Shown: positions 12,840 to 63,455 of the stretch, piece after piece
How the letters are laid out: each line of letters opens with the position of its first letter
Position numbering within the stretch: the stretch's first letter is position 1
Source of the DNA: an uncultured Bacteroidales bacterium
GTDB taxonomy: Bacteria > Bacteroidota > Bacteroidia > Bacteroidales > FEN-979
Assembly (NCBI GenBank): GCA_903845055.1
Contig: CAIMWF010000057.1
Span: forward strand, 1-64,000
Length of the DNA stretch: 64,000 nucleotides
Direction: 5' to 3'
The notes under the pieces: model-generated
What the model saw: only the letters and a program-made list of their open reading frames with translations
What the model was told of the DNA's origin: nothing
Databases searched by the model: none
Program-made: the position numbers and the translations under genes

Positions 12840-14612
12840 ATGAAGATCGCACTTGCACAACTGAACTTCCGCGTTGGTGATTTCACTGAAAATGTTTCAC
12901 GGATCATCGGGACCATTGAAAAAGCGAAATCGGCCGGGGCCGGTCTCGTTGTTTTCGCAGAGCTTTCGGTGTGTGGTTACCCCCCGCGCGATTTTCTTGA
13001 ATTCGACGATTTCATCCGCAGGTGCGATGAGTCAGTAAACGCCATTGCAGCAGCATGCACCGGCATTGCAGCCATCGTAGGCGCTCCTTCCGTCAACCCG
13101 GCACCGAAGGGGAAACCGCTTTATAATACCGCTTTTTTCCTTGCCGGCGGGAAGATTCTGGCAAGGATTCATAAAACCCTGCTGCCGAATTACGATGTCT
13201 TCGATGAATACCGTTATTTTGAGCCCAACCGGCTTCAGCCCTCTGTTGTAGAATGGCAGGGTTACCGTTTTGCCCTTACCATCTGCGAGGATTTGTGGAA
13301 CATTGCCGACGACCCGCTTTATGTCCGCAACCCGATGGACGACCTCACCGGACTCAATACCGATGTCCTGATCAACATTGCAGCCTCACCGTTCAATTAT
13401 AACCAGGCCAGGACAAGGCTTGACATTCTTTCAAGGAATGCAAAAACGTACAACCTGCCCGTTGTTTATGTCAACCAGGTGGGCGGGCAAACTGAACTTG
13501 TTTTCGACGGCGGATCGCTGGTGCTCGATGCAGCCGGAGTGGTTGTTGCCGGGCTCAGGCAATTTGAAGAGGACCTGCAGGTTGTCGAAATTCCAAAAAA
13601 GGAACACCCCAAAGAACAAGAAACGGATAAGACCCTGGAACCACCTATCATACAACCAAATCCTCAAATCCTCAAATCCCCAAATCCCCAATTCCCCGAA
13701 TCCCCAAATCCCCAAATCCTCAAATCCCCAAATTCTCCGATTGTCAGCATTTTCGATTTCACCTCCCCCGAAACCTCCTCGCTGATATACCATGCCCTCG
13801 TTCTCGGCATCCGCGATTACTTCGGCAAACTGGGCTTTCAGAAGGCAGTCCTGGGGCTTTCGGGCGGAATTGATTCGGCCGTTACGCTGGTACTGGCCGT
13901 TGCCGCCCTGGGCCGCGAAAACGTGAGGGCCATCCTGTTGCCATCGCAGTACTCGTCGGACCACAGCATCACCGATGCCAGGCTGATGGCTGAGAACCTA
14001 GAGGTTCCGTACGACATTATCCCGATCGAAGGCGCTTTCCGGTCGCTGGAACTGACCCTCGAACCGTACTTTACCGGGTTTCCTTTCAACCTTACCGAGG
14101 AGAACATCCAGGCGCGGATCAGGGGGGTGATCCTCATGGCGTTGTCGAACAAATTCGGGTATATCGTATTGAACACTTCCAACAAAAGTGAAGCAGCGGT
14201 GGGGTACGGCACACTTTATGGCGACATGTGCGGCGGGTTGTCGGTGCTGGGCGATGTTTACAAGGTGCAGGTGTATTCCCTGGCCCGGTACATCAACCGC
14301 GAATCGTTCATTATTCCCGAAAATACCATCCTGAAACCACCCTCCGCGGAGTTGCGTCCCGGGCAAAAGGATTCGGATTCACTGCCCGAATATGAAATCC
14401 TTGACCAGATATTGTTCCGGTACATTGAACAGCGAACAGGTCCCGATGAACTTATCCGGGGCGGCTTTGACGAGCGCACGGTGCGCAGGGTCCTCAAACT
14501 TGTCAACACAAACGAATACAAGCGGGCACAAACCCCGCCGGTCCTCCGTGTTTCACCAAAGGCTTTCGGCATGGGCCGCAGGATGCCGATCGTTGCCAGG
14601 TACCTCTCTTAG
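12840..14612 (+). CDS. nadE: glutamine-dependent NAD+ synthetase
   Basis: A 590-residue two-domain enzyme that converts nicotinic acid adenine dinucleotide to NAD+, using ammonia from glutamine. Residues 1-255 are the nitrilase-type glutaminase with Glu in FAELSVCGYPP, Lys in HKTLLPNYDVFDEYRYF and the catalytic Cys in LTICEDLWN. Residues about 310-590 are the synthetase with the ATP-pyrophosphatase P-loop GLSGGIDSA and NTSNKSEAAVGYGTLYGDM. The linker (residues about 273-299) is encoded by ten tandem 8-bp units and reads NPQILKSP, NPQFPESP, NPQILKSP. This low-complexity segment is not a usual NadE feature and looks inserted without disrupting either domain. Confidence 0.95.
   Translation: MKIALAQLNFRVGDFTENVSRIIGTIEKAKSAGAGLVVFAELSVCGYPPRDFLEFDDFIRRCDESVNAIAAACTGIAAIVGAPSVNPAPKGKPLYNTAFFLAGGKILARIHKTLLPNYDVFDEYRYFEPNRLQPSVVEWQGYRFALTICEDLWNIADDPLYVRNPMDDLTGLNTDVLINIAASPFNYNQARTRLDILSRNAKTYNLPVVYVNQVGGQTELVFDGGSLVLDAAGVVVAGLRQFEEDLQVVEIPKKEHPKEQETDKTLEPPIIQPNPQILKSPNPQFPESPNPQILKSPNSPIVSIFDFTSPETSSLIYHALVLGIRDYFGKLGFQKAVLGLSGGIDSAVTLVLAVAALGRENVRAILLPSQYSSDHSITDARLMAENLEVPYDIIPIEGAFRSLELTLEPYFTGFPFNLTEENIQARIRGVILMALSNKFGYIVLNTSNKSEAAVGYGTLYGDMCGGLSVLGDVYKVQVYSLARYINRESFIIPENTILKPPSAELRPGQKDSDSLPEYEILDQILFRYIEQRTGPDELIRGGFDERTVRRVLKLVNTNEYKRAQTPPVLRVSPKAFGMGRRMPIVARYLS
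13657..13736 (+). repeat. 8-bp tandem array (10 units) inside nadE
   Basis: Ten contiguous 8-mers with consensus CAAATCCC/CAAATCCT. Eight bp is not a multiple of three, so the protein repeats every 24 bp. The same unit, reverse-complemented (GATTTGAG), forms the array at 21390-21437. Confidence 0.95.
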
Positions 14613-14674
14613 GAAATGGCCCCCTGCCCTGCCCCTGAATGGGAACAGGCAAGAGGCCGCTTTATTAAAACTCC

Positions 14675-14923
14675 TTATTCGGCAGTAACCGATTCCACAG
14701 ACTTTATCTCGGGAATGGCCCGGATAACTGCAGCCTCGATCCCGTTCTTGAGGGTCATGCGGCTGTGGGGGCAATTCCCGCACATGCCCAGCAACCTGAT
14801 GTTTACCGTGTTGTCCTCGGTCAGATCGACATACTCCACATCGCCGCCATCGGCCTGCAGGTATGGACGGATCTGCTCTATGACGTTTTTTACTTTTGAT
14901 ACAAGTTCTTCATTTGCAACCAT
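14675..14923 (-). CDS. NifU-like C-terminal domain Fe-S scaffold protein
   Basis: An 82-residue stand-alone NifU C-terminal (Nfu) domain. It has the diagnostic RPYLQADGGDVEYVDL and the cluster-binding CxxC in GMCGNCPHS. Nfu proteins carry an Fe-S cluster between two subunits and hand it to apoproteins. The next gene upstream on the same strand, about 80 bases away, encodes Mrp/ApbC, another Fe-S carrier, so the pair is a small Fe-S assembly unit. Confidence 0.92.
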   Translation of the reverse strand: MVANEELVSKVKNVIEQIRPYLQADGGDVEYVDLTEDNTVNIRLLGMCGNCPHSRMTLKNGIEAAVIRAIPEIKSVESVTAE

Positions 14924-15004
14924 GGGAAAAATTTATTGAGTTAAAAATTTGATTAATATCTGTCTGAATCCCACCATGTCACCTTGTTACCAGTGACCAT
15001 GTTT

Positions 15005-16099
15005 TTACTGCGTCCCCCCTCCAAATATATCCTTAATGGAGTTGCTGATGGCGATCTGCCTGGCAACGTTTTCGGCAAAATCGACAAAAGCCGCCGTTAC
15101 CGGCGAACTGTCATCCATGGTAACCGGGATACCGGCATCACCCGATTCGGCGATGGCAGCAACGATGGGAATCTGTCCGAGCAGGGGTATGTTGAGTTCG
15201 GAGGCAAACTTTTTGCAGCCACCCTCGCCAAAAATGAAATATTTCTTACCGGGCATATCCGGCGGGATGAAATAGGCCATGTTTTCAACCAGTCCGAGGA
15301 TCGGGATGTTGATCTTGTCGTTACGGAACATGTCGGCTGCCTTACGCACATCGGCAATGGCCACCTGCTGCGGTGTGCTCACGATGATCGCCCCGGTTAG
15401 CGGGAAATCCTGGATGAGGGTCAGGGGAATGTCGCCGGTTCCGGGGGGAAGATCGATCACCATGTAGTCAAGATCTCCCCACTCGGCGTCGTTGAACAAC
15501 TGGCGCAGAGCCATGGAAGCCATGGGGCCACGCCATATGAGTGCTTTCGACGGGTCGACAAAGAAGCCGATGGACAGCACCTTCAACCCGAATTTCTCAA
15601 ACGGGTAAACGTAGGTTTTGCCGTCCTTGTCGAATCCCGTGGGCCGTTCATTGAGCATCCCGAACATCATGGGAATGGAGGGTCCGTAAATGTCGGCATC
15701 GATGAGCCCGACCTTTGCGCCACTCCTGGCAAGGGCAACTGCCAGGTTTACGGCAACCGTCGATTTGCCGACACCGCCCTTGCCCGAACCAACGGCAATG
15801 ATGTTTCTTACATTTTTAAGCATCACATCACTCTCTTTTCGCCGGGAGGTGACATTGGAGGTCATGTTTACCTCCACTTCAACTGCAGGATCTACATACT
15901 GGTGGATGGCGTCCACACAGGCCTGCCTGATCTGGTTTTTCAACGGACATGCAGGGGTGGTGAGCACCACGTCAAAACTGACCTTATTGCCGTCAGTCTT
16001 AACGTTTTCAATCATGTTCAGGGTTACCAGGTCCTTTTTCAGGTCGGGGTCGTCCACATGCCTTAAGGCATCAATAACGTTTGAATTATCTATGGTCAT
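15005..16099 (-). CDS. Mrp/ApbC (NBP35-type) Fe-S carrier ATPase
   Basis: A 364-residue protein with an N-terminal MIP18/DUF59 domain (residues 1-90, VDDPDLKKDLVTLNMI and TTPACPLKNQ) and a P-loop ATPase with deviant Walker A GSGKGGVGKST (about 107-117). VMIDLPPGTGD-type switch residues are present (YMVIDLPPGTGD). Proteins of this class bind and transfer Fe-S clusters. The C-terminal CxxC seen in many members is not evident; Cys in GEGGCKKFA is one candidate. It probably works with the Nfu protein encoded next. Confidence 0.9.
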   Translation of the reverse strand: MTIDNSNVIDALRHVDDPDLKKDLVTLNMIENVKTDGNKVSFDVVLTTPACPLKNQIRQACVDAIHQYVDPAVEVEVNMTSNVTSRRKESDVMLKNVRNIIAVGSGKGGVGKSTVAVNLAVALARSGAKVGLIDADIYGPSIPMMFGMLNERPTGFDKDGKTYVYPFEKFGLKVLSIGFFVDPSKALIWRGPMASMALRQLFNDAEWGDLDYMVIDLPPGTGDIPLTLIQDFPLTGAIIVSTPQQVAIADVRKAADMFRNDKINIPILGLVENMAYFIPPDMPGKKYFIFGEGGCKKFASELNIPLLGQIPIVAAIAESGDAGIPVTMDDSSPVTAAFVDFAENVARQIAISNSIKDIFGGGTQ

Positions 16100-20679: not shown

Positions 20680-21396
20680 ATGAATACCCGGGAAATCTTC
20701 GATTACATTCATTCCTTCGGGACAGAAAACAGCAATCCCGTCATCGTTGGAAAATACCAGAGATATTTCAGGGAGGGGTATGATGCCTATGGTTTAAGCA
20801 AGGAACAGGTTGACGCCCTTGTTCAGCATATCGTGGGTCTGCCCGGGATGAACCCCGGGCAACTCCAGGCTGCCACCCTCCGGCTTGTTGCCTCTCCAAA
20901 ATACGAGATGACGGTGATCTCCATCAGGCTCCTGCTCGAAGTTAAAAAGAGCTGGACTGCCGAAACATTGGAAACCGTTGAACAGTGGTTTTCGGCCGGG
21001 ATCACCAACTGGGCGCAAACCGATTATATCTGCGGGGAACTGATGAACCTCTTCTTTAAAAAAGGGCTGGTCAGCCTCGCCTCCATCGAACCCTGGAGAA
21101 CCGCTGAAAATAAATTCCAGCGGCGCGCGGCGGTGGTAAGCCTGATCAAACCAATGAAGCTTTCGACGGACTTCGGGCCCTGGTTTGACTTTATCGAACC
21201 GATGATGCACGACCCGGAGCGCGTGGTTCACCAGGGACTCGGATGGTTCCTGCGTGAAGCATGGAAAAAGCAGCCTGGCTTCACTGAACCTTTTTTGCTG
21301 AAGTACAGGAATACGGCCCCGAGGCTTATCTTCCAATATGCCACCGAGAAGATGACAACCGAAGGGAAGGAGAGGTTCAGGAAGGAAAAGATTTGA
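20680..21396 (+). CDS. AlkD-like DNA alkylation repair protein
   Basis: A 238-residue all-helical HEAT-like repeat protein of the AlkC/AlkD family of DNA glycosylases, which excise alkylated bases without base flipping. Family blocks: KYQRYFREGYDAYGL, KTWTLETVEQWF-like SWTAETLETVEQWF, NWAQTDYICGELM, and a C-terminal HQGLGWFLREAWKK. Trp and Asp residues of the active-site cleft appear retained (NWAQTD). It starts seven bases after alaS. Its TGA stop lies within the first unit of an 8-bp repeat array, so the last residues (KEKI) are partly repeat-encoded. Confidence 0.85.
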   Translation: MNTREIFDYIHSFGTENSNPVIVGKYQRYFREGYDAYGLSKEQVDALVQHIVGLPGMNPGQLQAATLRLVASPKYEMTVISIRLLLEVKKSWTAETLETVEQWFSAGITNWAQTDYICGELMNLFFKKGLVSLASIEPWRTAENKFQRRAAVVSLIKPMKLSTDFGPWFDFIEPMMHDPERVVHQGLGWFLREAWKKQPGFTEPFLLKYRNTAPRLIFQYATEKMTTEGKERFRKEKI

Positions 21397-21437
21397 GGAT
21401 TTGAAAATTTGAGGATGTGAGGATGTCAGGATGATGA
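21390..21437 (+). repeat. 8-bp tandem array (6 units) over the stop of the AlkD-like gene
   Basis: Units GATTTGAG, GATTTGAA, AATTTGAG, GATGTGAG, GATGTCAG, GATGATGA. The gene's TGA (21394-21396) is in the first unit. Same unit family as the array inside nadE. Confidence 0.9.
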
Positions 21438-21458: not shown

Positions 21459-21487
21459 GTAATTTTTAATTTTTTAATTTTTAATTT
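21459..21487 (+). repeat. 7-bp TTTTTAA array upstream of the GNAT gene
   Basis: Degenerate TTTTTAA units running to one base before the ATG at 21489. Third, slightly altered copy of the array found at 37067 and 58275. Confidence 0.8.
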
Positions 21488-23142: not shown

Positions 23143-24345
23143 ATGACAACACTTGCCAACAGAATTCAGTACCTGGCCGAAAGTGAAACCCTGGCCATGT
23201 CGCGCAAGAGCCGCGAACTCAAAGCAGAAGGGCACGATGTGATCAACCTGAGCCTCGGGGAACCCGATTTCAACACCCCCGATTACATCAAAAATGCCGC
23301 CAAGGAGGGTATTGATCAGAATTATACTTTTTATTCGCCCGTGGCCGGTTATGAAGACCTGCGCAAAGCCATCTGCGTAAAACTGAAACGCGACAACAAC
23401 CTCGATTACGACTGCAGCCAGATCGTGGTCTCCACCGGCGCCAAACAATCCATCGCCAATGTCATGCTGAGCCTGGTGAACCCCGGCGATGAAGTGCTGG
23501 TACCTGCACCCTACTGGGTGTCCTACAAAGAGATCATCAAGGTTGCCGAAGGAAAATCGGTTTTTATCCCGGCTACCATTGAAAATAATTTCAAGATCAC
23601 CCCGCAACAGCTGGAGGCCGCCATCACCCCCAAAACGAAATTATTGATTTACAGCTCACCCTGCAATCCCACCGGGTCGGTTTACACGCGCGAAGAGCTG
23701 AAAGGCATCGCCGATGTGATGGTTAAATACCCGAACATCACCATCGTGGCCGATGAGATTTATGAGCACATCAATTTCGTGGGGAAACACGAAAGCATTT
23801 GCCAGTTCCCTTACATCAAGGACCAGGTGGTGCTGATCAACGGCGTTTCCAAAGGGTATGCCATGACAGGCTGGAGGATCGGCTTTATCGCCGCCCCTAT
23901 CGCCATTGCCAAAGCCTGCGACAAACTCCAGGGACAATTTACTTCAGGCGCCTCATCCATTGCCCAGCGGGCCGCACTTACCGCTTTCATCAACGAACCT
24001 GGAAGCACACCCGACATGAAGACCATGCAGCAGGCCTTCCGCGAACGACGTGACCTGATGCTCGAACAACTGTCGGCCATCCCGGGCATGAAGCTCAACC
24101 ACCCCGACGGAGCCTTTTACATTTTCCCGGATATCTCCTGGTACTTCGGCAAATCAAACGGCACCATCACCATCACGAACGCCAACGATTTGTGCATGTA
24201 CCTGTTGAATACCGTATTCGTCGCCCTCGTTCCCGGCGATGCCTTCGGCGATCCTAACTGCATCAGGTTCTCCTATGCCACCAGCAAGGAAAAGCTTATG
24301 GAGGCGGTAAGGAGGATAAAGAAGGCACTGGGAGAGCTAAAATAA
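23143..24345 (+). CDS. aspartate aminotransferase-type PLP-dependent aminotransferase
   Basis: A 400-residue fold-type I aminotransferase of the AspC/class Ib group. The PLP lysine is in NGVSKGYAMTGWRIG (about 228-242), the Asp that binds the pyridine N in IVADEIYEHI, and the substrate-binding Arg in CIRFSYATS near the C-terminus. It probably moves amino groups between aspartate and 2-oxoglutarate, giving oxaloacetate for the PEP carboxykinase encoded next. The stop codon is followed with no gap by an 8-bp repeat array. Confidence 0.93.
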   Translation: MTTLANRIQYLAESETLAMSRKSRELKAEGHDVINLSLGEPDFNTPDYIKNAAKEGIDQNYTFYSPVAGYEDLRKAICVKLKRDNNLDYDCSQIVVSTGAKQSIANVMLSLVNPGDEVLVPAPYWVSYKEIIKVAEGKSVFIPATIENNFKITPQQLEAAITPKTKLLIYSSPCNPTGSVYTREELKGIADVMVKYPNITIVADEIYEHINFVGKHESICQFPYIKDQVVLINGVSKGYAMTGWRIGFIAAPIAIAKACDKLQGQFTSGASSIAQRAALTAFINEPGSTPDMKTMQQAFRERRDLMLEQLSAIPGMKLNHPDGAFYIFPDISWYFGKSNGTITITNANDLCMYLLNTVFVALVPGDAFGDPNCIRFSYATSKEKLMEAVRRIKKALGELK

Positions 24346-24385
24346 GGTAGCGAGGTAGCGAAATAGCGAAATGGAGAAATGGCGA
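24346..24385 (+). repeat. 8-bp tandem array (5 units) directly after the aminotransferase stop
   Basis: Units GGTAGCGA, GGTAGCGA, AATAGCGA, AATGGAGA, AATGGCGA begin at the base after TAA. The same family occurs at 29871, 36053 and, reverse-complemented, inside purL at 38111. Confidence 0.95.
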
Positions 24386-24422
24386 AAAAATTCAATCCTA
24401 AATTTTTATAAAAAATATTCAT

Positions 24423-26841: not shown

Positions 26842-27063
26842 ATGTACTGGACACTCGAATTGGCCTCAAAACTGGAAGATGCTCCCTGGCCTGCCACCAA
26901 GGAAGAGCTGGTCGATTGGGCGATCCGATCGGGCGCGCCACAGGAGGTTATTGAAAACTTAAGGGAGATCGAGGATGAAGGCGAATCCTACGAACGTATC
27001 GAAGATATCTGGCCTGATTATCCTACCAAAGACGATTTTTTCTTCCACGAAGACGAATATTAA
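26842..27063 (+). CDS. DUF2795 domain-containing protein
   Basis: A 73-residue acidic protein of a family almost universal in Bacteroidota. The core WPATKEELVDWAIRSGAP and the end EDIWPDYPTKDDFFFHEDEY are typical. Function unknown. Own promoter 26 bases upstream. The stop TAA is the first three bases of a 7-bp repeat array. Confidence 0.92.
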   Translation: MYWTLELASKLEDAPWPATKEELVDWAIRSGAPQEVIENLREIEDEGESYERIEDIWPDYPTKDDFFFHEDEY

Positions 27064-27095
27064 TTACAAATTAATATTTAATAATTACTAATTAT
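27061..27095 (+). repeat. 7-bp tandem array (5 units) starting at the DUF2795 stop
   Basis: Units TAATTAC, AAATTAA, TATTTAA, TAATTAC, TAATTAT; the first contains the TAA stop. It forms an inverted pair with 27121-27148, so the two convergent genes share a palindromic end region. Confidence 0.85.
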
Positions 27096-27120: not shown

Positions 27121-27148
27121 AGTAATTTGTAATTAGTAATCAGTAATT
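27121..27148 (-). repeat. 7-bp tandem array (4 units) at the rsmD stop
   Basis: On the minus strand AATTACT, GATTACT, AATTACA, AATTACT run away from the rsmD stop (27147-27149) and overlap it. Inverted relative to the array at 27061. Confidence 0.85.
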
Positions 27149-27695
27149 ATTTTCCCCCGTTTCCATTGATAAAGAAGCTGAAGTTCACGCTGCCGTAATT
27201 CCGGTGCTGGGTGAAGTACGGGTGTTTCTCAAACTTATAGCTGTCGGAATGTTCGAGGACGAGGAGCCCTTCATCGACCAGAAGCCCCGACTGAAAGATG
27301 AGGTCGGGTATCGACTCGATCCCTTCAAGATCGTAAGGCGGATCGGCAAATACCAGGTCGAAACTGAAGACCATGTGCTTGATGAAGACAAAACTGCTGG
27401 ACTTCACCGGCTTTAAATTTGTTTCACCGAATTCGGCCGCCGTTTTACGGATGAATTCGATACAGCGGGGATTGGAATCAACGGCCGTAACCTCCTTCAC
27501 CCCCCTTGAGAGGAATTCAAAGGCGATGCTCCCGGTACCCGAAAAAAGATCAAGCACCTTCAGCGATTCATAATCAACCATGTTGTTGAGTACGTTGAAC
27601 AGCCCCTCCTTGGCAAAATCGGTCGTTGGCCTTACCGGCAGGTTCACCGGTGGCTGGAGCCTGCGCCCCCTGTATTTGCCGCTTACAATCCGCAT
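27147..27695 (-). CDS. rsmD: 16S rRNA (guanine(966)-N(2))-methyltransferase RsmD
   Basis: A 182-residue methyltransferase. It begins MRIVSGKYRGRRL, the usual RsmD start, followed by RPTTDFAKEGLFNVL, motif I VLDLFSGTGSIAFE (about 47-60), and the catalytic FADPPYDL (about 116-123, DPPY). It methylates N2 of G966 in the small-subunit rRNA. It overlaps the end of the DUF3822 gene by 13 bases, an arrangement usual in the phylum. Its stop is within a 7-bp repeat array. Confidence 0.95.
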   Translation of the reverse strand: MRIVSGKYRGRRLQPPVNLPVRPTTDFAKEGLFNVLNNMVDYESLKVLDLFSGTGSIAFEFLSRGVKEVTAVDSNPRCIEFIRKTAAEFGETNLKPVKSSSFVFIKHMVFSFDLVFADPPYDLEGIESIPDLIFQSGLLVDEGLLVLEHSDSYKFEKHPYFTQHRNYGSVNFSFFINGNGGK

Positions 27696-29870: not shown

Positions 29871-29942
29871 AAAAGTGAGGTAGCGAGGCAGTGAGGTAGA
29901 GAGGTAGCGAGGTAGCGAAATAGCGAAATAGCGAAATGGTTA
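29871..29942 (+). repeat. 8-bp tandem array (9 units) between the MgtC-like and HsdR-N genes
   Basis: Consensus GGTAGCGA/AATAGCGA, including GGCAGTGA and GGTAGAGA variants. It lies 14 bases after the stop of the HsdR-N gene and 13 before the MgtC-like start. Same family as 24346. Confidence 0.95.
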
Positions 29943-36052: not shown

Positions 36053-36196
36053 AATGGTAAAATGGTGACAGGGTGACAGGGCGATAGGGTTGGAGGGTTG
36101 CAGGGTTAGAGGGTGACAAGGTTACAGGGTGACAAGGTTACAGGGTGACAAGGTTACAGGGTGACAGGGTAATAGGGTGCCAAGGTTACAGGGTGA
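36053..36196 (+). repeat. 8-bp tandem array, 18 units, longest in the window
   Basis: Eighteen contiguous 8-mers in unbroken phase, consensus CAGGGTGA alternating with CAAGGTTA, and starting with AATGGTAA and AATGGTGA. It fills most of the intergenic space between the acyl-CoA ligase start (35943) and the SDR stop (36267). No spacers, so not a CRISPR array. The first units resemble AATGGCGA of the other 8-bp arrays. Confidence 0.95.
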
Positions 36197-36266
36197 CAGG
36201 GACTCATGGTTAAGGCTGCCGATGAACCCGTCATTAGCAATTTATTTTTCTAACTTTTAATTTTTT

Positions 36267-37066: not shown

Positions 37067-37096
37067 CCGTAATTTTTAATTTTTAATTTTTAATTG
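37067..37096 (+). repeat. TTTTTAA 7-bp array at the purL stop
   Basis: A 30-bp sequence identical to 58275-58304. It encodes, on the minus strand, the last residues QLKIKN and the stop of PurL. Confidence 0.95.
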
Positions 37097-40000
37097 AATA
37101 AACTCCCTTGCATTCACAAACGCCTCGATCCATGGCGTGACCTCATCCGACCTGCGATCCTCGGGATACCACGGCCACTGCCAGGGCAGCACCGAGTCCT
37201 CGAGATGCGGCATGATGGCCAGGTGCCGTCCGTCGGGCGAAGCGATGCAGGCTGCATCGAACTGCGAACCGTTGGGGTTGCCGGGGTATCCGTGGTAGCT
37301 GAATCTGGCGGGGATGTTGTAATGCTCCTCCCCTTCGGGGAAATTGAATTTCCCCTCGCCATGCGCCACCCAGATCCCTAGTTTCGACCCTGCCAGCGAT
37401 TTCAGCATCACCGAGTTGTTTTCCACAATGTCGACACCGACAAAGGTGCATTCGTATTTGTGCGAATCGTTCCACGACATCCAGGGGTGTTTCGCGTGCC
37501 CGGGGTAGATCAGCCCCAGTTCGACCATCAGTTGGCAGCCGTTGCAGACGCCCAGGCTCAGCGTGTCGTCACGACGGTAGAAATTGTCAAGTGTGGACCT
37601 GGCCTTTTCATTGTACAGGAAGGCGCCCGCCCAGCCCTTCGCCGAGCCCAGTACGTCGGAGTTAGAAAAACCGCCCACGAAGGCAATCAGGTTGACATCC
37701 TCCAGGTTCTCGCGCCCTGCGATGAGGTCGGTCATGTGGACATCCTTCACGTCGAAACCCGCCAGGTACAATGCCCAGGCCATGTCGCGGTCGCGGTTCA
37801 CCCCCTTTTCCCGGATGATCGCCGCCCGGATGCCCGAGGGAGTTCTCCTTTTCGGATCAACCCCGTATTGTTGCGCTGTCCCGGTAAAGCCTGCATTTAA
37901 GCTGAACTTCAGCGGCTGCTTCTTATAGTTTTTATAACGTTCCAACGCAAGCACCTCCCCCGATTGTTTCCGGTCGAAAAGGTAAGAGGTTCTGAACCAG
38001 GTATCGCGCAAAGCGTCGATGTCAAATACGAAATGCTGCCCCGCAAGGGAGATATCCATGGAGCGTGTGGCAGAAACCTTCCCAATCGGGAAGATATTTA
38101 CTTCTTTCCCATTTCGCCATTTCGCCATTTCGCCATTTCGCACCTGTATCACCAATCCCGGTCTTTCACTGAACAGCACCCTCACCGGGTCGGTTTCCCC
38201 TTCTGCCATGGCGTCGAGGTTCATATCCAGGCCGTTGCTTTCGCAGGTAAAGGTCATTTCAAGCAGGGTGGTGATCAGTCCGCCCGCGGCAACATCGTGC
38301 CCTGCAAGGACCACCCCCAGGCCGATGAGTTCCTGGATCATGGCAAAGGAGGTCGCAAAATCATCCGGATCCGAAACATCGGGGGTGCCGGCGCCGGGCT
38401 GGTTCACCACCTGGGAAAAGCTGCTTCCGCCAAGTTCGAAACCCTGGTCGGAAAACGGGATGTACCAGAGCGAAGTATCCGCCGCCGATGAAAGGCAGGG
38501 ACTTACAACCCTTTTAACATCCGACACCTCCCCCACGGCCGAGATGATCACGGTGCCCGGGGAATAGACCACCTGGCCGTCGGGATATTTCTGGGTCATC
38601 GAGAGTGAGTCCTTCCCGGTCGGAATATTGATGCCGAGGGCGATGGCAAATTCGCTGACAGCCCGCACGGCCATATATAACCGTGCATCTTCGCCCGGGT
38701 TGCGGCACGGCCACATCCAGTTGGCGCTGAGTGATACACCCGGCAGCCCGTGGGTCAGCGGCGCCCATACCAGGTTGGTGAGCGCCTTGGCGATTGACAG
38801 CCTTGAACCAGACTCGGCGTTGATGAGCCCCGCAACGGGCGCGTGACCGAGCGATGTGGCGATGCCCCGCATTCCCTGGTAATCGAGCGCCGTAACGCCC
38901 ACGTTGTTGAGGGGCAGCTGGATGACGCCGCAGTTCTGCTGTTTGGCGATCTTGCCGCTCACGGCCCGGTCGACTTTGTTGGTCAGCCAATCCTTGCAGG
39001 CAACGGCCTCGAGCTGTAAAACCCTGGTGAGGTAGAGCAGAAGGTTTGCATGATCGTCGGCAAGTAATGAATGACCAGTGACGAGTGACGAGTGACGAGG
39101 GACGAGGGACGAATCGGTCATGATGGTTTTGGGCGGTTTGCCGAAAAAGTCGGCAAGGTTCAGGTTGATCGGTGCGACACCCTCATTTTTATCTTCAAAG
39201 ACCAGCTGCTGATCGCCGGTGGTATGACCGACGAGGTACATGGGGGCACGCTCGCGCAGGGCGATCTCCTGCATCAGGGCGACATCGCGGTCGGCCAGGA
39301 TGAGGCCCATGCGCTCCTGCGATTCGTTGCTCACGATCTCGCGTGCCGAAAGGGTGGGATCGCCCACCGGCAAACGGTCGATGTTAATGGTTCCCCCTGT
39401 GGCCTCCACAAGTTCCGAAAGAGCATTGAGGTGACCGCCGGCGCCGTGGTCGTGGATGGAGACGATGGGATTGTGTTCCATCTCCGTCATCGCCCTGATG
39501 GCGTTGAAAACGCGTTTCTGCATCTCGGGGTTCGACCGCTGTACGGCATTCAGCTCAATGGCGTTGGCATATTCGCCGGTGGCAACCGAGGAGACCGCCC
39601 CGCCGCCCATCCCGATCCGGTAGTTGTCGCCCCCCAATACCACGATGTTCTGTCCGGCCACGGGCTCTTCCTTGAGACTGTCCTCTGCGCGGGCAAAGCC
39701 GATGCCGCCGGCCTGCATGATCACCTTGTCGTATCCGAAAACCTGTCCATTTGAGGCATGTTCAAAGGTAAGCACCGATCCGCAGATGAGGGGCTGACCG
39801 AACTTGTTGCCGAAATCGCTGGCGCCGTTGGAGGCCTTGATGAGGATCTCTTCGGGCGTTTTATAGAGCCAGGGCCTGGCCTGCACACCCGTTTCCCAGG
39901 GACGGGAACCCCCCAGCCGCGGGTAGGAGGTCATGTAGACCGCCGTGCCGGCCATGGGGATGCTTCCCCTGCCGCCCGCCATGCGGTCGCGGATTTCGCC

Positions 40001-40813
40001 GCCGCTTCCCGTGGCCGCTCCGTTGAAGGGCTCTACAGTGGTCGGGAAATTGTGGGTCTCGGCCTTCAGGGAGATGACCGAATGAATATCGCTGACGCGG
40101 AAGAAACCTGGAATGTTCTGCGGGAACGGGGAGAACTGCTCGATATCGGGCCCCTGGATAAAGGCGACATTGTCCTTGTAAGCAGAAACGAGGAGGTTGG
40201 GGTTCGCCTTTGCCGTTTTTTTTATGAGCGAAAAGAGCGATTCGGGCATTTCCTGGCCGTCGATGATAAAGGTGCCGTTGAAGATCTTATGCCGGCAGTG
40301 TTCCGAGTTGACCTGCGAGAAACCGAAAAGTTCGCTGTCGGTCAGGTCGCGCCCGAGCTTGCGGCTCAGCCCGGCAAGATAATCAATCTCCTCAGGGCTC
40401 AAGGCAAGCCCCTGTTCGCTGTTGTAGGCCGCAATATCGGTGATGAAACGCACCGGTTCCGGCTCGTGATGAATATGGAAGATCTCCTGGCCCAGTCCCC
40501 GGTACAGGTGCCTGAGCATCGGGTCAAACCCCTCTCCCGCCCCATCCATCGTAAATCGTACATCGTAAATCGTAAATTCTTCTATCCTGCTGATCCCGCT
40601 GATCCCCATATTCTGGGTTATCTCCACGGCGTTTGTGCTCCATGGTGTCACCATCTCGCGGCGGGGGCCGACCCAGGTTCCCGGTAAAACAGGTTCGGCG
40701 ACACGTACCGCATCGCCGAACAACCATGTTAATTTTTCTATATCCTGACCGCTCAGCGCGGCGTTGCTTTGAACAGCATAGCAACTGCCGGGGTTTTTGA
40801 AGAATGTTATCAT
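37076..40813 (-). CDS. purL: phosphoribosylformylglycinamidine synthase, large single-chain form
   Basis: A 1245-residue FGAM synthase of the single-chain (PurLQ-fused) type for step four of purine synthesis. The first ATG in phase (40811-40813, MITFFKN) is preferred to an upstream TTG. Seen are SEHCRHKIFNG and ETHNFPTTVEPFNGAATGSGG of the synthase domains, GGMGGGAVSS-like IGMGGGAVSSVATGEYANA, and a C-terminal glutaminase with catalytic Cys in GVCNGCQLMVELGL and His/Glu near MPHLEDSVLPWQWPW. Three tandem-repeat arrays lie inside the coding sequence (residues about 80-89, 568-584 and 891-901), one at the stop and one just upstream. The domain motifs are intact, so the enzyme is probably active. 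Confidence 0.95.
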   Translation of the reverse strand: MITFFKNPGSCYAVQSNAALSGQDIEKLTWLFGDAVRVAEPVLPGTWVGPRREMVTPWSTNAVEITQNMGISGISRIEEFTIYDVRFTMDGAGEGFDPMLRHLYRGLGQEIFHIHHEPEPVRFITDIAAYNSEQGLALSPEEIDYLAGLSRKLGRDLTDSELFGFSQVNSEHCRHKIFNGTFIIDGQEMPESLFSLIKKTAKANPNLLVSAYKDNVAFIQGPDIEQFSPFPQNIPGFFRVSDIHSVISLKAETHNFPTTVEPFNGAATGSGGEIRDRMAGGRGSIPMAGTAVYMTSYPRLGGSRPWETGVQARPWLYKTPEEILIKASNGASDFGNKFGQPLICGSVLTFEHASNGQVFGYDKVIMQAGGIGFARAEDSLKEEPVAGQNIVVLGGDNYRIGMGGGAVSSVATGEYANAIELNAVQRSNPEMQKRVFNAIRAMTEMEHNPIVSIHDHGAGGHLNALSELVEATGGTINIDRLPVGDPTLSAREIVSNESQERMGLILADRDVALMQEIALRERAPMYLVGHTTGDQQLVFEDKNEGVAPINLNLADFFGKPPKTIMTDSSLVPRHSSLVTGHSLLADDHANLLLYLTRVLQLEAVACKDWLTNKVDRAVSGKIAKQQNCGVIQLPLNNVGVTALDYQGMRGIATSLGHAPVAGLINAESGSRLSIAKALTNLVWAPLTHGLPGVSLSANWMWPCRNPGEDARLYMAVRAVSEFAIALGINIPTGKDSLSMTQKYPDGQVVYSPGTVIISAVGEVSDVKRVVSPCLSSAADTSLWYIPFSDQGFELGGSSFSQVVNQPGAGTPDVSDPDDFATSFAMIQELIGLGVVLAGHDVAAGGLITTLLEMTFTCESNGLDMNLDAMAEGETDPVRVLFSERPGLVIQVRNGEMAKWRNGKEVNIFPIGKVSATRSMDISLAGQHFVFDIDALRDTWFRTSYLFDRKQSGEVLALERYKNYKKQPLKFSLNAGFTGTAQQYGVDPKRRTPSGIRAAIIREKGVNRDRDMAWALYLAGFDVKDVHMTDLIAGRENLEDVNLIAFVGGFSNSDVLGSAKGWAGAFLYNEKARSTLDNFYRRDDTLSLGVCNGCQLMVELGLIYPGHAKHPWMSWNDSHKYECTFVGVDIVENNSVMLKSLAGSKLGIWVAHGEGKFNFPEGEEHYNIPARFSYHGYPGNPNGSQFDAACIASPDGRHLAIMPHLEDSVLPWQWPWYPEDRRSDEVTPWIEAFVNAREFIQLKIKN
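38111..38142 (+). repeat. 8-bp array (4 units) inside purL
   Basis: ATTTCGCC units; reverse-complement of AATGGCGA. It encodes part of RNGEMAKWRNGKE in PurL. Same family as 24346, 29871 and 36053. Confidence 0.9.
39064..39112 (+). repeat. 7-bp array (7 units) inside purL
   Basis: GTGACGA units with GTAATGA, ATGACCA and GGGACGA variants; 49 bp. On the minus strand it codes for DSSLVPRHSSLVTGHS in PurL. Confidence 0.9.
40548..40575 (+). repeat. 7-bp array (4 units) inside purL
   Basis: ATCGTAA, ATCGTAC, ATCGTAA, ATCGTAA. On the minus strand it codes for EFTIYDVRFTMD in PurL. The unit recurs at 53597 and, reverse-complemented, at 56304 and 63346. Confidence 0.9.
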
Positions 40814-40815
40814 AG

Positions 40816-40843
40816 ACTCAAAGTTCAAAGGTCAAAACTCAAA
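40816..40843 (+). repeat. 7-bp array (4 units) just upstream of purL
   Basis: ACTCAAA, GTTCAAA, GGTCAAA, ACTCAAA, between the trxB stop and the purL ATG, three bases before the start codon. Confidence 0.8.
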
Positions 40844-40861
40844 AACGGGTGTCCGGCATGT

Positions 40862-44757: not shown

Positions 44758-44835
44758 CAGGGATTCCGGGTTGATTTGGGTGTTAAAATTAGCAAAATAA
44801 TGGTTCGGCCCAACCCGCCCCCCAAATTCCCCCCC

Positions 44836-44877
44836 TATTGCCTGTTGCCTTCTGCCCTCTTCCTCTTCCCTCTCCAA
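44836..44877 (+). repeat. degenerate 7-bp array (about 6 units) upstream of the C10 gene
   Basis: TATTGCC, TGTTGCC, TTCTGCC, CTCTTCC, TCTTCCC, TCTCCAA. Reverse-complement of the GGCAA-type units at 53542. Confidence 0.6.
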
Positions 44878-44894
44878 TACTTTTTCACTTTTCG

Positions 44895-44924
44895 TTGCAC
44901 CGATTATAAATTTACTTAAATTTG
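44895..44924 (+). promoter_or_regulatory. promoter of tRNA-Pro (-33 TTG, 19-bp spacer, -7 TAAATTTG)
   Basis: TTG at 44895-44897 and TAAATTTG at 44917-44924 with a 19-bp spacer match the Bacteroidota consensus; the tRNA starts 37 bases further on. Confidence 0.65.
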
Positions 44925-44961
44925 CATCCTCAAAACCGGGAAACGTTCCCGGTGATTCAAT

Positions 44962-45035
44962 CGGGGTGTGGCGCAGTTGGCTAGCGTACTTGCATGGGGT
45001 GCAAGGGGTCGGAAGTTCGAGTCTTCTCACCCCGA
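44962..45035 (+). tRNA. tRNA-Pro (anticodon GGG)
   Basis: A 74-base cloverleaf. Acceptor arms CGGGGTG and CACCCCG pair fully, the anticodon stem CTTGC/GCAAG encloses loop ATGGGGT with anticodon GGG, and the T loop is TTCGAGT. CCA is not encoded, as usual in this phylum. An upstream promoter and a downstream terminator frame it as a single-gene transcript. It neighbours the integrase-barrel chimera and may have served as an integration site. Confidence 0.93.
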
Positions 45036-51354: not shown

Positions 51355-51410
51355 TGAATACCGAATATCGAATATCGAATATTGAATGTCGAGTGTCGAA
51401 TTTTGAAGTT
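51355..51410 (+). repeat. 7-bp tandem array (8 units) over the TPR gene stop
   Basis: TGAATAC, then three CGAATAT, TGAATGT, CGAGTGT, CGAATTT, TGAAGTT. The last two bases overlap the TAA stop (51409-51411) of the leftward TPR gene. Confidence 0.95.
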
Positions 51411-53541: not shown

Positions 53542-53576
53542 AGGCAAAAGGCAAAATGCAACAGGCAATAGTAACT
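53542..53576 (+). repeat. 7-bp tandem array (about 5 units)
   Basis: AGGCAAA, AGGCAAA, ATGCAAC, AGGCAAT, AGTAACT; intergenic between the TPR and T9SS genes. Confidence 0.8.
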
Positions 53577-54994: not shown

Positions 54995-55831
54995 ATGAAA
55001 TATATCGGAGCACATGTAAGTGCATCGGGCGGCGTTGAAAATGCGCCGGTCAATGCACACGCCATCGGGGCGAAGGCCTTTGCCCTTTTTACGCGCAACC
55101 AGCGCCAGTGGAAATCGTCGCCGCTTTCAAAAGGGAGTATTGAACAATTTAAGGAAAATTGCGAAAAATACGGATTCAAGCCAGGCTATATCCTTCCCCA
55201 CGACAGTTACCTGATCAACCTGGGCCATCCCGAACAGGAAGGGCTGGAGAAGTCACGCGAGGCCTTCCTGGATGAGATGAGCAGGTGTGAACAGCTGGGC
55301 CTCGACCGGTTGAATTTCCATCCGGGGGGATCGCTCGGCCAGTTCAGCGATGAGGAATGCCTGCGTCGGATAGCCGAATCGATCAACATCACCCTTGGGA
55401 AAACCAAAGGCGTGATCGCTGTAATCGAAAACACGGCCGGGCAGGGCAGCAACCTGGGTTTTAAATTTGAACAGATCGGATTTATCATCAGCCTTGTGGA
55501 AGACAAAAACCGGGTGGGAGTTTGCATCGACACCTGCCATTCCTTTGCAGCAGGGTACGACCTGACCTCCGACGATGCCTTCAATGCGACCTTCCGCAAT
55601 TTTGACGAAGCCGTCGGGTTCGGGTACCTGAAAGGAATGCACATCAACGATTCAAAAAAAGGGCTGGGCAGCCGGGTCGACCGGCACGACAGCCTCGGAA
55701 AGGGGACCCTCGGTCTTGAGGTCTTCAGGCGGCTCATGCACGATCCGCGTTTTGATGAAATCCCCCTGATCCTCGAAACGCCCGATGAAACAATCTGGGC
55801 AGAGGAGATCAAACTTTTATACAGTCTTTAG
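54995..55831 (+). CDS. nfo: deoxyribonuclease IV (apurinic/apyrimidinic endonuclease)
   Basis: A 278-residue TIM-barrel AP endonuclease with three-metal active site. Blocks: [81 protein letters not shown] and LETPDE, all ligand segments intact. It incises DNA at abasic sites, the product of alkyl-base glycosylases such as the AlkD-like protein. Its end overlaps the convergent SDR gene by 15 bases. Confidence 0.95.
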
Positions 55832-56899
55832 GTTTTCAAGCAACGCTTCAGACATTTCCCAGAGACGCCTGCCGTTTCCGGGATCGGCCGCCATCTCATC
55901 CACCGGTTTCCTGCTCATCAGGAAGAGGTAGTCGGAGGTTTTTCCCTCAACATCGGGCGACGCAGCCAGGTATACCACCGGGACTGCGGCCTTGACTGGC
56001 GATTTGAAAAATATCCCAAATACCACCTTCAGCAGGGGCTGGAAAATCACGGGGGCTTCACGCGCGATGTTCGAGTTGACAGGACCGGGGCAAAGGGCAA
56101 ACACTGAAACACGGGGATGGCCGCCGGGGTTGAGGCGACGGGCCAGTTCGCAGGCATAGGTCGTCAGCAGGAGTTTGTAATACCCGTACAATTCAATCGA
56201 TTTGCCTATCTGGTAATCCCGGTAGTGGCCGAATTCGTCCCAGCTGAAATTGTCGGGGTTACGGTGGCTTTCGGAGGCGACAAAGACGATTCGGGGAATA
56301 GGGGATTTACGATTTACGAATTCAGATTTACGATTTAAATCTGTTGCATCCGGACTTTCTCCCGTCGCAAGTTCGGGATTGATGTTCATCAGGTTATGCC
56401 CGATGAGAAGGTTCACAAAGATGAATTTCGAGAAATAATTGACCATGAACATCTCCTCCAGCCCCTGCGGGGTTTTCCTGCTCTTCTTCGGCACGATGCC
56501 GGCATTGCAGACAAGAACGTCAATCCTGCTTTCAACCCCGTCGCTGCCCTTGAGGAACGGTTTCAGATTTTCCACCAGTTTTGTGATCGACCGGATATCT
56601 GCAAAATCAACGTGAAGCATGTGGACATCGTGGTTCCCCGAAAGTTTCTTTACCCGCTCCCCCTGTTCCGGGATGCCGCTGCGGCATGCCATAATGACCC
56701 TTGCCCCGCGACGGGCGAGATCGGTGGCGACGGCAAAACCCAGGCCGGAACTTGACCCGTCGACCAGCGCGGTCTTCCCGTCCAGCCTGTCGGACAATTT
56801 CAATTCACCGGCCGGTTCATGCTTGCGGAAAAGGTCGGCGATGCCTGTCAATGTTGCTGAAACGGGGTTGTTGTATTTTTTGTGCCTGTTATCTTTCAT
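55817..56899 (-). CDS. SDR family oxidoreductase, extended (WWOX/retinol dehydrogenase-like)
   Basis: A 360-residue SDR. Cofactor motif [19 protein letters not shown] (about 47-65), NAG in [10 protein letters not shown], catalytic YxxxK in [11 protein letters not shown] (about 235-245) and [11 protein letters not shown] before it. The length and block spacing fit the protochlorophyllide reductase/retinol dehydrogenase group. A five-unit 7-bp array is inserted in the coding sequence at residues about 188-199 ([13 protein letters not shown]). It is last in a leftward operon with sulfotransferase and DUF1214 genes (11-base overlap with the former). Confidence 0.85.
56304..56338 (+). repeat. 7-bp array (5 units) inside the SDR gene
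   Basis: GATTTAC, GATTTAC, GAATTCA, GATTTAC, GATTTAA. Open in the coding frame of the SDR. Same unit as 40548, 53597, 63346. Confidence 0.9.
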
Positions 56900-58274: not shown

Positions 58275-58304
58275 CCGTAATTTTTAATTTTTAATTTTTA
58301 ATTG
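58275..58304 (+). repeat. TTTTTAA 7-bp array at the DUF1214 gene stop
   Basis: A 30-bp sequence identical to 37067-37096. It encodes the C-terminal QLKIKN and stop of the DUF1214 protein. Confidence 0.95.
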
Positions 58305-60333: not shown

Positions 60334-60346
60334 CCAGATATTTTAG

Positions 60347-60354: not shown

Positions 60355-60383
60355 TGGTTAATATCGGGTTAAAATATCGTAAT

Positions 60384-61894: not shown

Positions 61895-63343
61895 ATGAAC
61901 CCTTTTAAAAATCTGGCCATCCTGCTGTTGCTGACAGCCCTGGCCGGCGTTTTCGTGCCCGCGTTGGGCCAGGAACCGCCACCCGGTAAAAAAGTCTATA
62001 CGCTTTATCCGCCGATTAATTTAGCTGCCACAAACGTCAACTGTTACGGTTATCTTACCTGGCAGAAACCCCAGATGCCCGGCGGCGCCACCCCGTCGGG
62101 TCTGGTCGGCTATTGCGTTTACAAGAATGGGGTGTTACTTCAATATATCGCGGGTGAAGGGACCCTTCTCTACTGGGACTATGAGCTGGCCCCGGGAACA
62201 TCCACCTACACGGTAACGGCAAAATACGACCTCACCTCCTATGGCACTCCCGGCCAGTTCGGGGAGTCGCTGCCTGCCGGCCCGGTTCAGTTAACATGGA
62301 ATTGTGCCGTATCATGGCCATTTTTTGAACCCTGGGATGCAGGCACATTTTCTTTCCATAGCTGGATGTTCAGCCCGGCACAGGGAAACTGGACCGTTAA
62401 TACCGGCCAGGGGAACCCCGCCCCGACCGCACTTTTCAACGGAACTCCCTCCATTGAAAATTACAATATTTTAATGAAAGGCTACTGGCTGCTCGGTGAA
62501 GTTTTTACCTGTGCCAATATCTACTTTGAGTTTGACTACAAACTCACCGATAATTCGGCGGGAGGTACCGAGAAACTGGTACCTGTATATTATCTTGATA
62601 CAACCTGGTACCCGCTGATGGAATTAACAAACCAGGGTTCAACCGGATGGATTCATCAGAAAATTGATCTCTCAATGATTTGTGGCCATTATTCCCGGAT
62701 AGGTTTCAGGGTGTCGGGCATCCACAGCGCCAACATCGCAGGATGGGAGGTGGACAATATTTATGTGCATGCGGTCTGTAAAGGACCAACCAGCCCAGCC
62801 TATACGTTGAACTGGAACCAGGTGAACCTGTCATGGCAACACCCTGCCTGCGACAGCCTGTCGTCGGTTGCCGGGTATAATGTTTACCGCACCGACAAGA
62901 CCGGGTTGCCGCCGTTCTCTAAAATAACCGCCAGCCTTATCCAGGGTTACGCCTATACCGATTACATCCCGACCTCCATCCTCAATGGCCAGTTCCGGTA
63001 TTATATAACCGACTATCACAAAAACTACCAGGATGGAACCCTGTTATGTGAAGCATCATCGGATACCCTGGTGCTCGATTACGCATTGGGGATCAGGGAT
63101 CCCGGTGCCGGCGGCATCCGGATATACCCGCAGCCTGCCAGGGATAATCTGACGGTGAGCAGCGACAGCCCGGTTGAAACATACGGGGTCTACAGCGTTC
63201 TCGGAACAACCATGATCAGCCGTTCAGCCAACAATCAAAGGGAATTCAGCATTGCCGTGAACCAGCTACCCGAAGGGATCTACCTGGTGCAAATAAAAAA
63301 TGCATCAGGAACCTTCACGAGGAAAGTGTCGGTGATGCATTGA
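61895..63343 (+). CDS. T9SS type A sorting domain protein with jelly-roll and fibronectin modules
   Basis: A 482-residue secreted protein. Signal peptide MNPFKNLAILLLLTALAG, first fibronectin-like module (PPINLAATNVNCYGYLTWQK), a MAM/jelly-roll-like domain (ANIYFEFDYKLTDNSAGGTE, IGFRVSGIHSANIAGWEVDN), a second fibronectin-like module (YTLNWNQVNLSWQH, VAGYNVYRTDK) and a type A sorting domain (IRIYPQPARDNLTV, LPEGIYLVQIKNASG). No catalytic domain; it may be an adhesin or binding protein. The stop is followed after two bases by a 7-bp array. Confidence 0.85.
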   Translation: MNPFKNLAILLLLTALAGVFVPALGQEPPPGKKVYTLYPPINLAATNVNCYGYLTWQKPQMPGGATPSGLVGYCVYKNGVLLQYIAGEGTLLYWDYELAPGTSTYTVTAKYDLTSYGTPGQFGESLPAGPVQLTWNCAVSWPFFEPWDAGTFSFHSWMFSPAQGNWTVNTGQGNPAPTALFNGTPSIENYNILMKGYWLLGEVFTCANIYFEFDYKLTDNSAGGTEKLVPVYYLDTTWYPLMELTNQGSTGWIHQKIDLSMICGHYSRIGFRVSGIHSANIAGWEVDNIYVHAVCKGPTSPAYTLNWNQVNLSWQHPACDSLSSVAGYNVYRTDKTGLPPFSKITASLIQGYAYTDYIPTSILNGQFRYYITDYHKNYQDGTLLCEASSDTLVLDYALGIRDPGAGGIRIYPQPARDNLTVSSDSPVETYGVYSVLGTTMISRSANNQREFSIAVNQLPEGIYLVQIKNASGTFTRKVSVMH

Positions 63344-63345
63344 AG

Positions 63346-63380
63346 AATTTACGATTTTGGATTTACAATTTACGATTTCG
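63346..63380 (+). repeat. 7-bp array (5 units) after the T9SS stop
   Basis: AATTTAC, GATTTTG, GATTTAC, AATTTAC, GATTTCG, two bases after TGA. Inverted pair with 63421-63455. Confidence 0.9.
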
Positions 63381-63420
63381 TGATTTAATCGAGTTAACAG
63401 GACAACATTAAAGGTCTTTT

Positions 63421-63455
63421 AAATCGTAAATTCAAAATCGAAAATAGTAAATCGT
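63421..63455 (-). repeat. 7-bp array (5 units) directly after the citrate synthase stop
   Basis: On the plus strand AAATCGT, AAATTCA, AAATCGA, AAATAGT, AAATCGT, ending at the base before the TAG (63456-63458 on the minus strand). Confidence 0.95.

Follow-up and report, generated by a model that had tools for sequence, protein, structure and literature searches.

Tandem arrays of 7- and 8-bp units in an uncultured Bacteroidales bacterium and its congeners

How does a bacterial genome come to carry short tandem arrays whose period is held at 7 or 8 bp while the repeated sequence changes from one array to the next? The question is raised by 64,000 nucleotides from an uncultured Bacteroidales bacterium (positions 1 to 64,000 of contig CAIMWF010000057.1, assembly GCA_903845055.1; hereafter the window), which lie within contig C57 of a genome of 3.95 Mb in 175 contigs, 95% complete, that we designated G000. 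Tandem Repeats Finder, at a minimum score of 30, identified 15 period-7 and 6 period-8 arrays in the window, ~20 to 140 bp in length, the same totals as those of a preliminary description made from the sequence alone. We favour the reading, at a probability of about one half, that these arrays are heptamer and octamer satellites: they would lengthen by 7 or 8 nt at a time, take repeats resident in the genome as their seeds, and survive at the 3′ ends of genes and in protein linkers.

Arrays in the window, the genome and the genus

Markov-1 shuffles of the window (n = 50) yielded a mean of 1.28 period-7 and 1.24 period-8 arrays, and the two periods together never gave more than 6. Periods 6, 9 and 12 likewise exceed their shuffles: periods 6, 9, 10, 11 and 12 are represented by 3, 5, 3, 1 and 3 arrays, against 0.3, 1.16, 1.78, 0.72 and 0.56. 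At a stricter score, 6 period-7 arrays, 4 period-8 arrays and 1 period-16 array remain in the window. The preliminary description had called for a test of periods over the genome, and the 7/8 excess is present there as well. Our sample of G000, made up of the window and 55 further stretches (1,146,357 bases, 29% of the genome, drawn mostly from long contigs and not random), held 0, 1, 71, 33, 5 and 0 arrays of periods 5 to 10, and 7, 6, 3 and 6 arrays of periods 14, 16, 21 and 24. Shuffles of the first 851 kb of this sample, the control at genome scale, gave 0 arrays of period 7 or 8. As in described heptanucleotide repeats, heptamers are over-represented relative to chance and to neighbouring periods; G000 departs from a pattern of period 7 only, with 33 period-8 arrays beside the 71, a modest ratio.

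The same periods recur in related genomes. In 367 kb around purL from 12 congeners we found 32 period-7, 13 period-8 and 1 period-6 array, and none of period 5, 9 or 10; 11 of the 12 had at least one array, G014 having none in 40 kb. Period 7 also leads in 1.28 Mb from loci L036 to L108, which we assumed to lie outside the genus (a PurL tree leaves L036 and L037 unsettled), with 21 arrays against 4 of period 8, 3 of period 9, 10 of period 14 and 8 of period 21. Of 590 named PurL loci, the best 80 come for the most part from bins of Bacteroidales or Bacteroidetes. A strong 8-bp class looks like a mark of the genus, since 8-bp arrays are strong in the congeners and few (4) in L036 to L108. The arrays are real, and they are spread over the sampled genome and genus.

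Units and their replacement at orthologous sites

The preliminary description spoke of many unrelated units, which is incorrect: a small number of units recur often. In the 851-kb sample, 75 arrays are built from 24 units, the commonest being CGATTTA (13 arrays), TAATTTT (11) and CGAGTGA (9). The 52 period-7 arrays reduce to 15 distinct units, whereas random intergenic seeds would give ~50 (minimum 44 in 2000 draws), and the largest period-7 class holds 13 arrays against at most 4 in 2000 random-seed draws. Slippage from one seed alone is insufficient to explain a constant period over changing sequences, as the preliminary description had argued. Across the 1.146 Mb, 14 of 17 period-7 and 7 of 13 period-8 units fit the form YRA-N(1-2)-T-NN (6.8 and 2.7 in shuffles). 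The narrower core CGA.T.. occurs in 8 of the 17 period-7 units (1.2 in shuffles, 0 of 2000) and CGA..T.. in 4 of the 13 period-8 units (0.7 in shuffles, 2 of 2000), a test that is descriptive more than proof because the core was defined after the units had been seen and the units are related.

The arrays of the window, together with purL, are as follows.

13656..13733, forward strand: 8-bp array CCAAATCC (9.8 copies), in the part of nadE (12840-14612) that links the CN_hydrolase domain to the NAD_synthase domain
21390..21432, forward strand: 8-bp array GATTTGAG, overlapping the stop codon of a gene of the DNA_alkylation family
21460..21487, no strand: 7-bp array TAATTTT, intergenic, with one indel
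24345..24387, forward strand: 8-bp composite array, CGAGGTAG then CGAAATAG then CGAAATGG, beginning at the stop of an aminotransferase gene
27061..27094, no strand: 7-bp array, TAATTAC-type
27121..27149, no strand: 7-bp array, GTAATTA-type, approximately the inverse of 27061 (inversion by eye)
29877..29934, forward strand: 8-bp composite array, CGAGGTAG then CGAAATAG
36064..36201, forward strand: 8/16/32-bp composite array, GGTGACAR / GGTTACAG
37070..37095, forward strand: 7-bp array TAATTTT, forming the final codons and stop of purL
37076..40828, reverse strand: purL (FGAM synthase, 1250 aa); arrays lie at three places inside it, at its stop and at its 5′ end
38105..38141, reverse strand: 8-bp array CGAAATGG, purL loop 3
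39072..39112, reverse strand: 7-bp array TCGTCAC (CGAGTGA family), purL loop 2, between the AIRS_C and PurM_N-like domains
40548..40577, reverse strand: 7-bp array ATTTACG (CGATTTA family), purL loop 1
40816..40844, no strand: 7-bp array ACTCAAA, 5′ end of purL
44851..44873, no strand: weak 7-bp array TCTTCCC with indels, which may be chance
51356..51407, forward strand: 7/21-bp array CGAATAT
53542..53568, no strand: 7-bp array AGGCAAA
53596..53628, reverse strand: 7-bp array, CGATTTA family
56304..56337, forward strand: 7-bp array, CGATTTA family, within a short-chain-dehydrogenase-like open reading frame (ORF; 55817-56899, reverse strand)
58278..58303, forward strand: 7-bp array TAATTTT, located at the stop codon of a DUF1214 gene; the array at 37070 has the identical 26 bp
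63346..63387, forward strand: 7/21-bp array, CGATTTA family, immediately past the stop of a Por_Secre_tail gene
63420..63454, reverse strand: 7/14-bp array TAAATCG, approximately the inverse of 63346 (inversion by eye)

Simple ORF calls placed 19 of the 21 arrays. Five lie wholly within ORFs (13656, 38105, 39072, 40548 and 56304), in agreement with the preliminary description, and 8 of the 19 lie over or within 10 bp of a predicted stop, where nine had been counted before. The arrays at 40816 and 44851 were outside this placement; the latter falls inside ORF 41869-45030.

We compared the sites in PurL, NadE and conserved gene junctions across the genus, where rows were readable for 14 of 19 genomes at PurL loop 1, 15 at loop 2, 15 at loop 3 (L138 misanchored), 16 of 19 at the purL tail and 14 of 17 at NadE, with score thresholds for PurL and NadE picked after the scores were seen. 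At loop 1, 10 of the 14 genomes (G000 included) had a period-7 score of at least 12, with units that include GATTTAC (several genomes), AAATGAC, GAATGAC, AAATCCG and AAAGTTC. Loop 2 held arrays in 5 of 15 rows and is 41 aa long in every row except the window (48). At loop 3, 6 of 14 correctly anchored rows scored at least 12, the rest showing no array or a weak one; the unit is 8 bp in the window, TATTCAA-type in G015, G014 and G005, CGAAAAT in G009 and GGAAATT in G010. The purL tail had an array in 9 of 16 rows, period-8 units scoring best in two. The NadE linker, between the CN_hydrolase and NAD_synthase domains, had arrays in 8 of 14 genomes at a score of at least 11; six are octameric and two heptameric, and they are built from eight different units of which two differ by one base. 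In G010, one unit, GAAATTG, is common to PurL loops 2 and 3 and the NadE linker. The reading frames are open through the PurL and NadE arrays, except in one PurL match (G004).

A PurL tree places G015 next to G000 (91/95); the tree is poorly resolved, with outgroup row L038 in the wrong reading frame and the G006 and G001 rows partial, and was used only for this placement. G015 has other units than G000 in loop 3 and the tail and none in loop 2 or NadE. Among 88 conserved junction pairs, 10 were occupied in both genomes, 10 in G000 only, 3 in the relative only and 65 in neither. Five of the 10 co-occupied pairs differ in period and one has a common unit, the CGAGGTAG family seen at window position 24345 and in G011. 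That the period is kept while the sequence changes, as was said of the window, is now seen at orthologous sites too, and core metabolic enzymes such as PurL and NadE take repeat-coded peptides into their linkers. As a separate observation, loop 1 (L131, L135, L136, L138 and L139) often has, by eye, a heptamer array and next to it an approximate reverse complement of that array (for example AAATGAC, then GTCACTC), an arrangement that is rare among the arrays of G000 (7 of 93).

Copying, growth and survival of arrays

Array ends lean to one phase in three families. TAATTTT runs begin at TAATT in 11 of 17 cases, 7 of the 17 being directly preceded by CG in our own reading; CGAGTGA runs finish at CGA in 9 of 13, and CGAGGTAG runs do so in 12 of 15, partly because AATAG units come next. 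Along 31 chains of 8-bp units, the change from GG to AA occurs 14 times and the reverse 3 times (p 0.013), and TAG stands before TGG 12 times and after it 4 times (p 0.077).

Two congeners, G001 and G007, are 91-96% identical where aligned, and a G007 stretch upstream of purL has dozens of matches in G001. The composite CTAATGGCTAATGGCCAATGCC is found, its variant units in the same order, at 11 places spread over 10 fetched G001 loci and at a single site of G007 that two overlapping loci cover; at the matching place upstream of purL, G001 holds a different module from G007. At another junction, a 42-bp block (6 x 7) is in G001 and missing from G007. Over the ~52 kb that we aligned (17,087, 19,996 and 14,588 bases, the last piece badly aligned at its end), we saw this block indel and the one replaced module, and ~35 kb is array-free in both. 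Some form of within-genome copying is indicated, and of all the parts of the mechanism, copying from resident repeats has the best support. A separate dispersed element, a 70-bp stretch at L158:14329-14399 that has no evident heptamer pattern, has 10 G001 matches at 85-90% identity.

The mechanism that we propose starts from what the comparisons show: arrays whose short periods are nearly all 7 or 8 bp, in the sampled part of the genome as in the sampled congeners; a small unit vocabulary in G000, many units having CGA-N(1-2)-T-NN; and the same loops, linkers and junctions occupied in several species by mostly different units, at times with a change between 7 and 8. Short array modules appear to be copied to unlinked places in one genome with the order of variants kept, which the G001 composites show in part. 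Ectopic template switching or gene conversion, in the course of replication or repair, might do the copying. Strand realignment might then lengthen and shorten the arrays by 7 or 8 nt at a time, a step that the replication or repair machinery, and not the sequence, would set. Judging from placement, selection would purge most insertions; the ones spared would lie at the 3′ ends of genes, between convergent genes, or in inter-domain linkers and loops whose frame stays open.

Several observations weigh against this reading. Insertion into new sites is something that we infer, since no pair of empty and filled sites with clean breakpoints was found; the empty-site comparison that had been proposed, made on one close pair (G001 and G007, ~52 kb aligned), gave no clean insertion or clear new site. 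The 11 module places in G001 are a count biased upward because the loci came from a similarity search, and some of them lie at contig ends. No single end phase was found for CGATTTA runs. A fixed polar order of the 8-bp composites, our first impression, weakened on counting to a tendency and no rule (14:3 and 12:4), and CGA[G/A]TGA arrays have no order preference (11:10). A universal CGA core was dropped, as outside the genus 2 of 20 units carry it against 1.1 expected, which is not significant (the looser YRA form: 9 of 20, 5.6 expected). The p value for co-occupied junctions (Fisher, 8e-6) is optimistic because the 20 pairs occupied in G000 stem from 7 junctions, and the junction and unit tests are not independent, the units being related. 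Finally, PurL loop 2 measures 41 aa in each of the 14 other readable congeners, whether an array is present (four) or absent (ten).

Plain replication slippage would have each array arise from its own local 7- or 8-mer, with polymerase geometry favouring a 7-nt step and no copying between sites. Heptamers are the most abundant category of long repeats in most genomes of a 2007 survey by Mrazek, as reported in PMC4679880, period 7 leads outside the genus too (21 arrays, followed by 10 of 14 bp and 8 of 21 bp), and the one length change that we observed is a block of whole units (42 bp). We nonetheless consider this account unlikely, given that it does not provide for so few units (15 for 52 arrays against 50 expected, the largest class 13 against at most 4), for an order of variants common to unlinked sites, or for the lean of array ends to one phase in the TAATTTT, CGAGTGA and CGAGGTAG families. 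Nor does slippage alone predict a loop 2 of constant length with or without an array.

Placement relative to genes was scored for the 75 arrays of periods 7 and 8 in 851 kb, using simple codon-model gene calls. As in described heptanucleotide repeats, the arrays are mostly outside genes: only 7 of 75 lie inside, against 62.6 expected. Of the remainder, 17 are at stop codons; convergent gaps hold 10, tandem gaps 34 and divergent gaps 4, while one array overlaps a start and two sit at the edges of stretches. Among the 66 non-coding arrays, stop and convergent places together hold 27 (14.7 expected, p 9e-4), and start and divergent places 5 (20.9 expected, p 4e-6), namely 1 over a start (8.7 expected) and 4 in divergent gaps (12.2 expected). 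The enrichment at stop codons suggested by the preliminary description is thus present, but it is modest (17 of 66 against 10.0 expected) and partly circular, because an array that contains a stop creates the stop that it overlaps.

This distribution, the CGA-N(1-2)-T-NN core and the junctions co-occupied between congeners would also be expected of functional site arrays, selected binding sites or three-frame stops in which only spacing and a short core are constrained. Arrays near starts only, of which 8 are antisense and 1 sense (p 0.04), point the same way. We give this possibility no better a chance than slippage. At the same junction the unit, and even the period, differ between congeners; translated arrays also lie within PurL and NadE; and survival at tolerant places explains this distribution too. 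Three-frame stop arrays were rejected on orientation, which is unbiased where a stop precedes the array in the larger sample (25 sense, 17 antisense, p 0.28), the 18:0 ratio for stops within arrays being circular. A hairpin or inverted design was likewise rejected as a rule, with an inverted partner of its own within 200 bp for 7 of 93 arrays against 15 of 744 controls; these counts, and the lack of a clean empty site in one close pair, are also what a comparison with miniature inverted-repeat transposable elements, for terminal inverted repeats and target-site duplication, returns.

Candidate writing enzymes and known repeats

A dedicated repeat writer, whether a telomerase-like reverse transcriptase, a Y1 transposase or another enzyme, could lay down units of fixed length. 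The sharp 7/8 specificity, the rewriting of PurL loop 2 at constant length in congeners and the existence of DRT10, proof that bacteria own such enzymes (PMC12632851), speak for it, as do RVT_1 matches in 16 of 19 genus genomes. So does the patchy distribution of one exact unit. Three copies of CGAGTGA, with one mismatch allowed, have matches in 11 of the 395 genomes that were drawn from the whole phylum; apart from G000, all of these lie outside its order and class. Counting overlapping places, there are 51 in G000 and, in four genomes of other families, 99 (G119), 216 (G131), 132 (G139) and 160 (G154); G123, G045 and G162, listed genomes congeneric with these array-rich ones, have none. The reversed unit, as a control, was absent from G000 and the four rich genomes and had matches in 8 of 395, at up to 23 places (G315).

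RVT_1 was not found in G000, G007 or G017, all of which carry arrays, nor in the array-rich G119, G131, G139 and G154, and a reverse transcriptase was rejected on these grounds; yet RVT_1 matches in 5 of 12 distant genomes besides the 16 of 19 in the genus. Y1_Tnp, searched for in G000 and the 12 distant genomes, was not found in G000 and is present in 11 of the 12, array-rich and array-poor alike, so that repetitive extragenic palindromes with their associated tyrosine transposases (REP/RAYT) were also rejected. The machinery for writing repeats that the preliminary description had considered is therefore not supported. A writer gene may have been missed, as G000 is 95% complete. For G000, the easiest candidates for a writing enzyme are removed. 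We regard a dedicated writer as improbable, somewhat more so than slippage or functional sites.

The same low standing applies to a replication or repair enzyme of this lineage that would write 7- or 8-nt steps from resident repeats, overwriting tolerant sequence in place and not only lengthening it. It is suggested by PurL loop 2, which stays 41 aa in congeners with and without an array, and, if true, protein linkers and intergenic gaps would be rewritten in a genome-specific repeat vocabulary. An artefact of assembling or binning short-read metagenomes is very improbable: most named loci are metagenome bins and G000 is fragmented (175 contigs), but array loci occur in named bins from several submissions, frames are open through the PurL and NadE arrays (G004 PurL excepted), and the window arrays are just ~20 to 140 bp.

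In 20 stretches of the four rich distant genomes (L234 to L253) we saw, by eye, mostly long mosaics of CGAGTGA with CAAGTGA, CGAATGA or CGGGTGA; the mixture of CGAGTGA and CAAGTGA resembles a two-letter code, and the neighbour is often a further array with a different unit. In G315, the reversed heptamer is itself repeated at its 23 places, another high-copy unit.

Short tandemly repeated repetitive (STRR) heptamers of cyanobacteria come in several units per genome, as here, and are likened to our arrays by description. Three heptanucleotides have been reported from Calothrix (PMC4692102). Over-representation of heptamers in prokaryotes is published, with a hypothesis of polymerase slippage (Mrazek et al. 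2007, as cited in PMC4679880 and PMC4692102), so the 7-bp excess as such is already known. Those heptamers resemble ours in their excess and in a preference for 7 that has no explanation; as far as those accounts describe them, the present arrays differ in having a strong 8-bp class in one genus, a common unit core and replacement of units at orthologous sites. The preliminary description knew of no such arrays in Bacteroidota, which is mistaken, as TAACTGA arrays occur in five Bacteroidetes as well as in Beggiatoaceae and Cyanobacteria (MacGregor 2015, PMC4679880). These are also patchy heptamers, some in ORFs or after stops, but, as described there, consist of one unit, whose single-base variants are rarely repeated, and lie mostly upstream of starts in the main genome, whereas here there are many units, mostly away from starts (1 over a start and 4 in divergent gaps, as above). 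TAACTGA is not among the 17 period-7 units of the G000 sample and is listed once among the units from outside the genus. Two arrays of a Chryseolinea bin (L087:2691 and 5528) have the unit AATAACG (CGAATAA, also found in G000) and an AGTTATC-type unit, apparently the published TAACTGA.

The GGGAATC and GGGGA(C/T)T repeats of Xanthomonas and Nostoc (Rehm 2015, PMC4692102) lie mostly between matching genes of two relatives and vary extensively in length and sequence, include some inverted pairs and are rare in genes, as here. Unit variation at common junctions thus has a precedent in Xanthomonas. Their unit, as given there, is G-rich and quadruplex-forming, in contrast to our AT-rich or CGA-type units and 8-bp class, and no G-rich GGGNATC-type heptamer is in the unit lists of the G000 sample. 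Borg tandem repeats (PMC9879509) are similarly fast-evolving, independently arising arrays that also form disordered stretches in ORFs, but Borgs are extrachromosomal archaeal elements, and the abstract gives no fixed 7/8-bp period. DRT10 makes short tandem-repeat DNA by a telomerase-like reverse transcriptase; as described, the product is a cDNA in phage defence with a 9-nt unit in one system and a motif length that depends on the system, whereas no RVT_1 was found in G000 (PMC12632851 for DRT10). Repeat density in Bacteroidota has been reported as high, with a subset of 6-9-bp units enriched in prokaryotic phyla (PMC12699852).

In the open-access literature we found neither the 8-bp class nor the CGA-N(1-2)-T core described for Bacteroidota, nor any replacement of units at fixed coding sites there, within the parts of these sources that were available. 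The bacterial preference for 7 nt has so far been noted and only hypothesised about in the accounts cited (PMC4679880, PMC4692102). The cause of the 7/8-nt step can now be tested in this genus: arrays are numerous in each genome, congeners are plentiful, and arrays of new units recur at coding sites that stay fixed (the PurL loops and the NadE linker), which makes birth, copying and step length measurable.

Two minor observations stand apart. Another Bacteroidia bin has a long 8/16-bp array, AATGTGCC, at L051:9479 (score 329), and positions 5111-8632 of the window encode a protein of 1173 aa in which PKD_6 and CHU_C type IX secretion signal domains are present.

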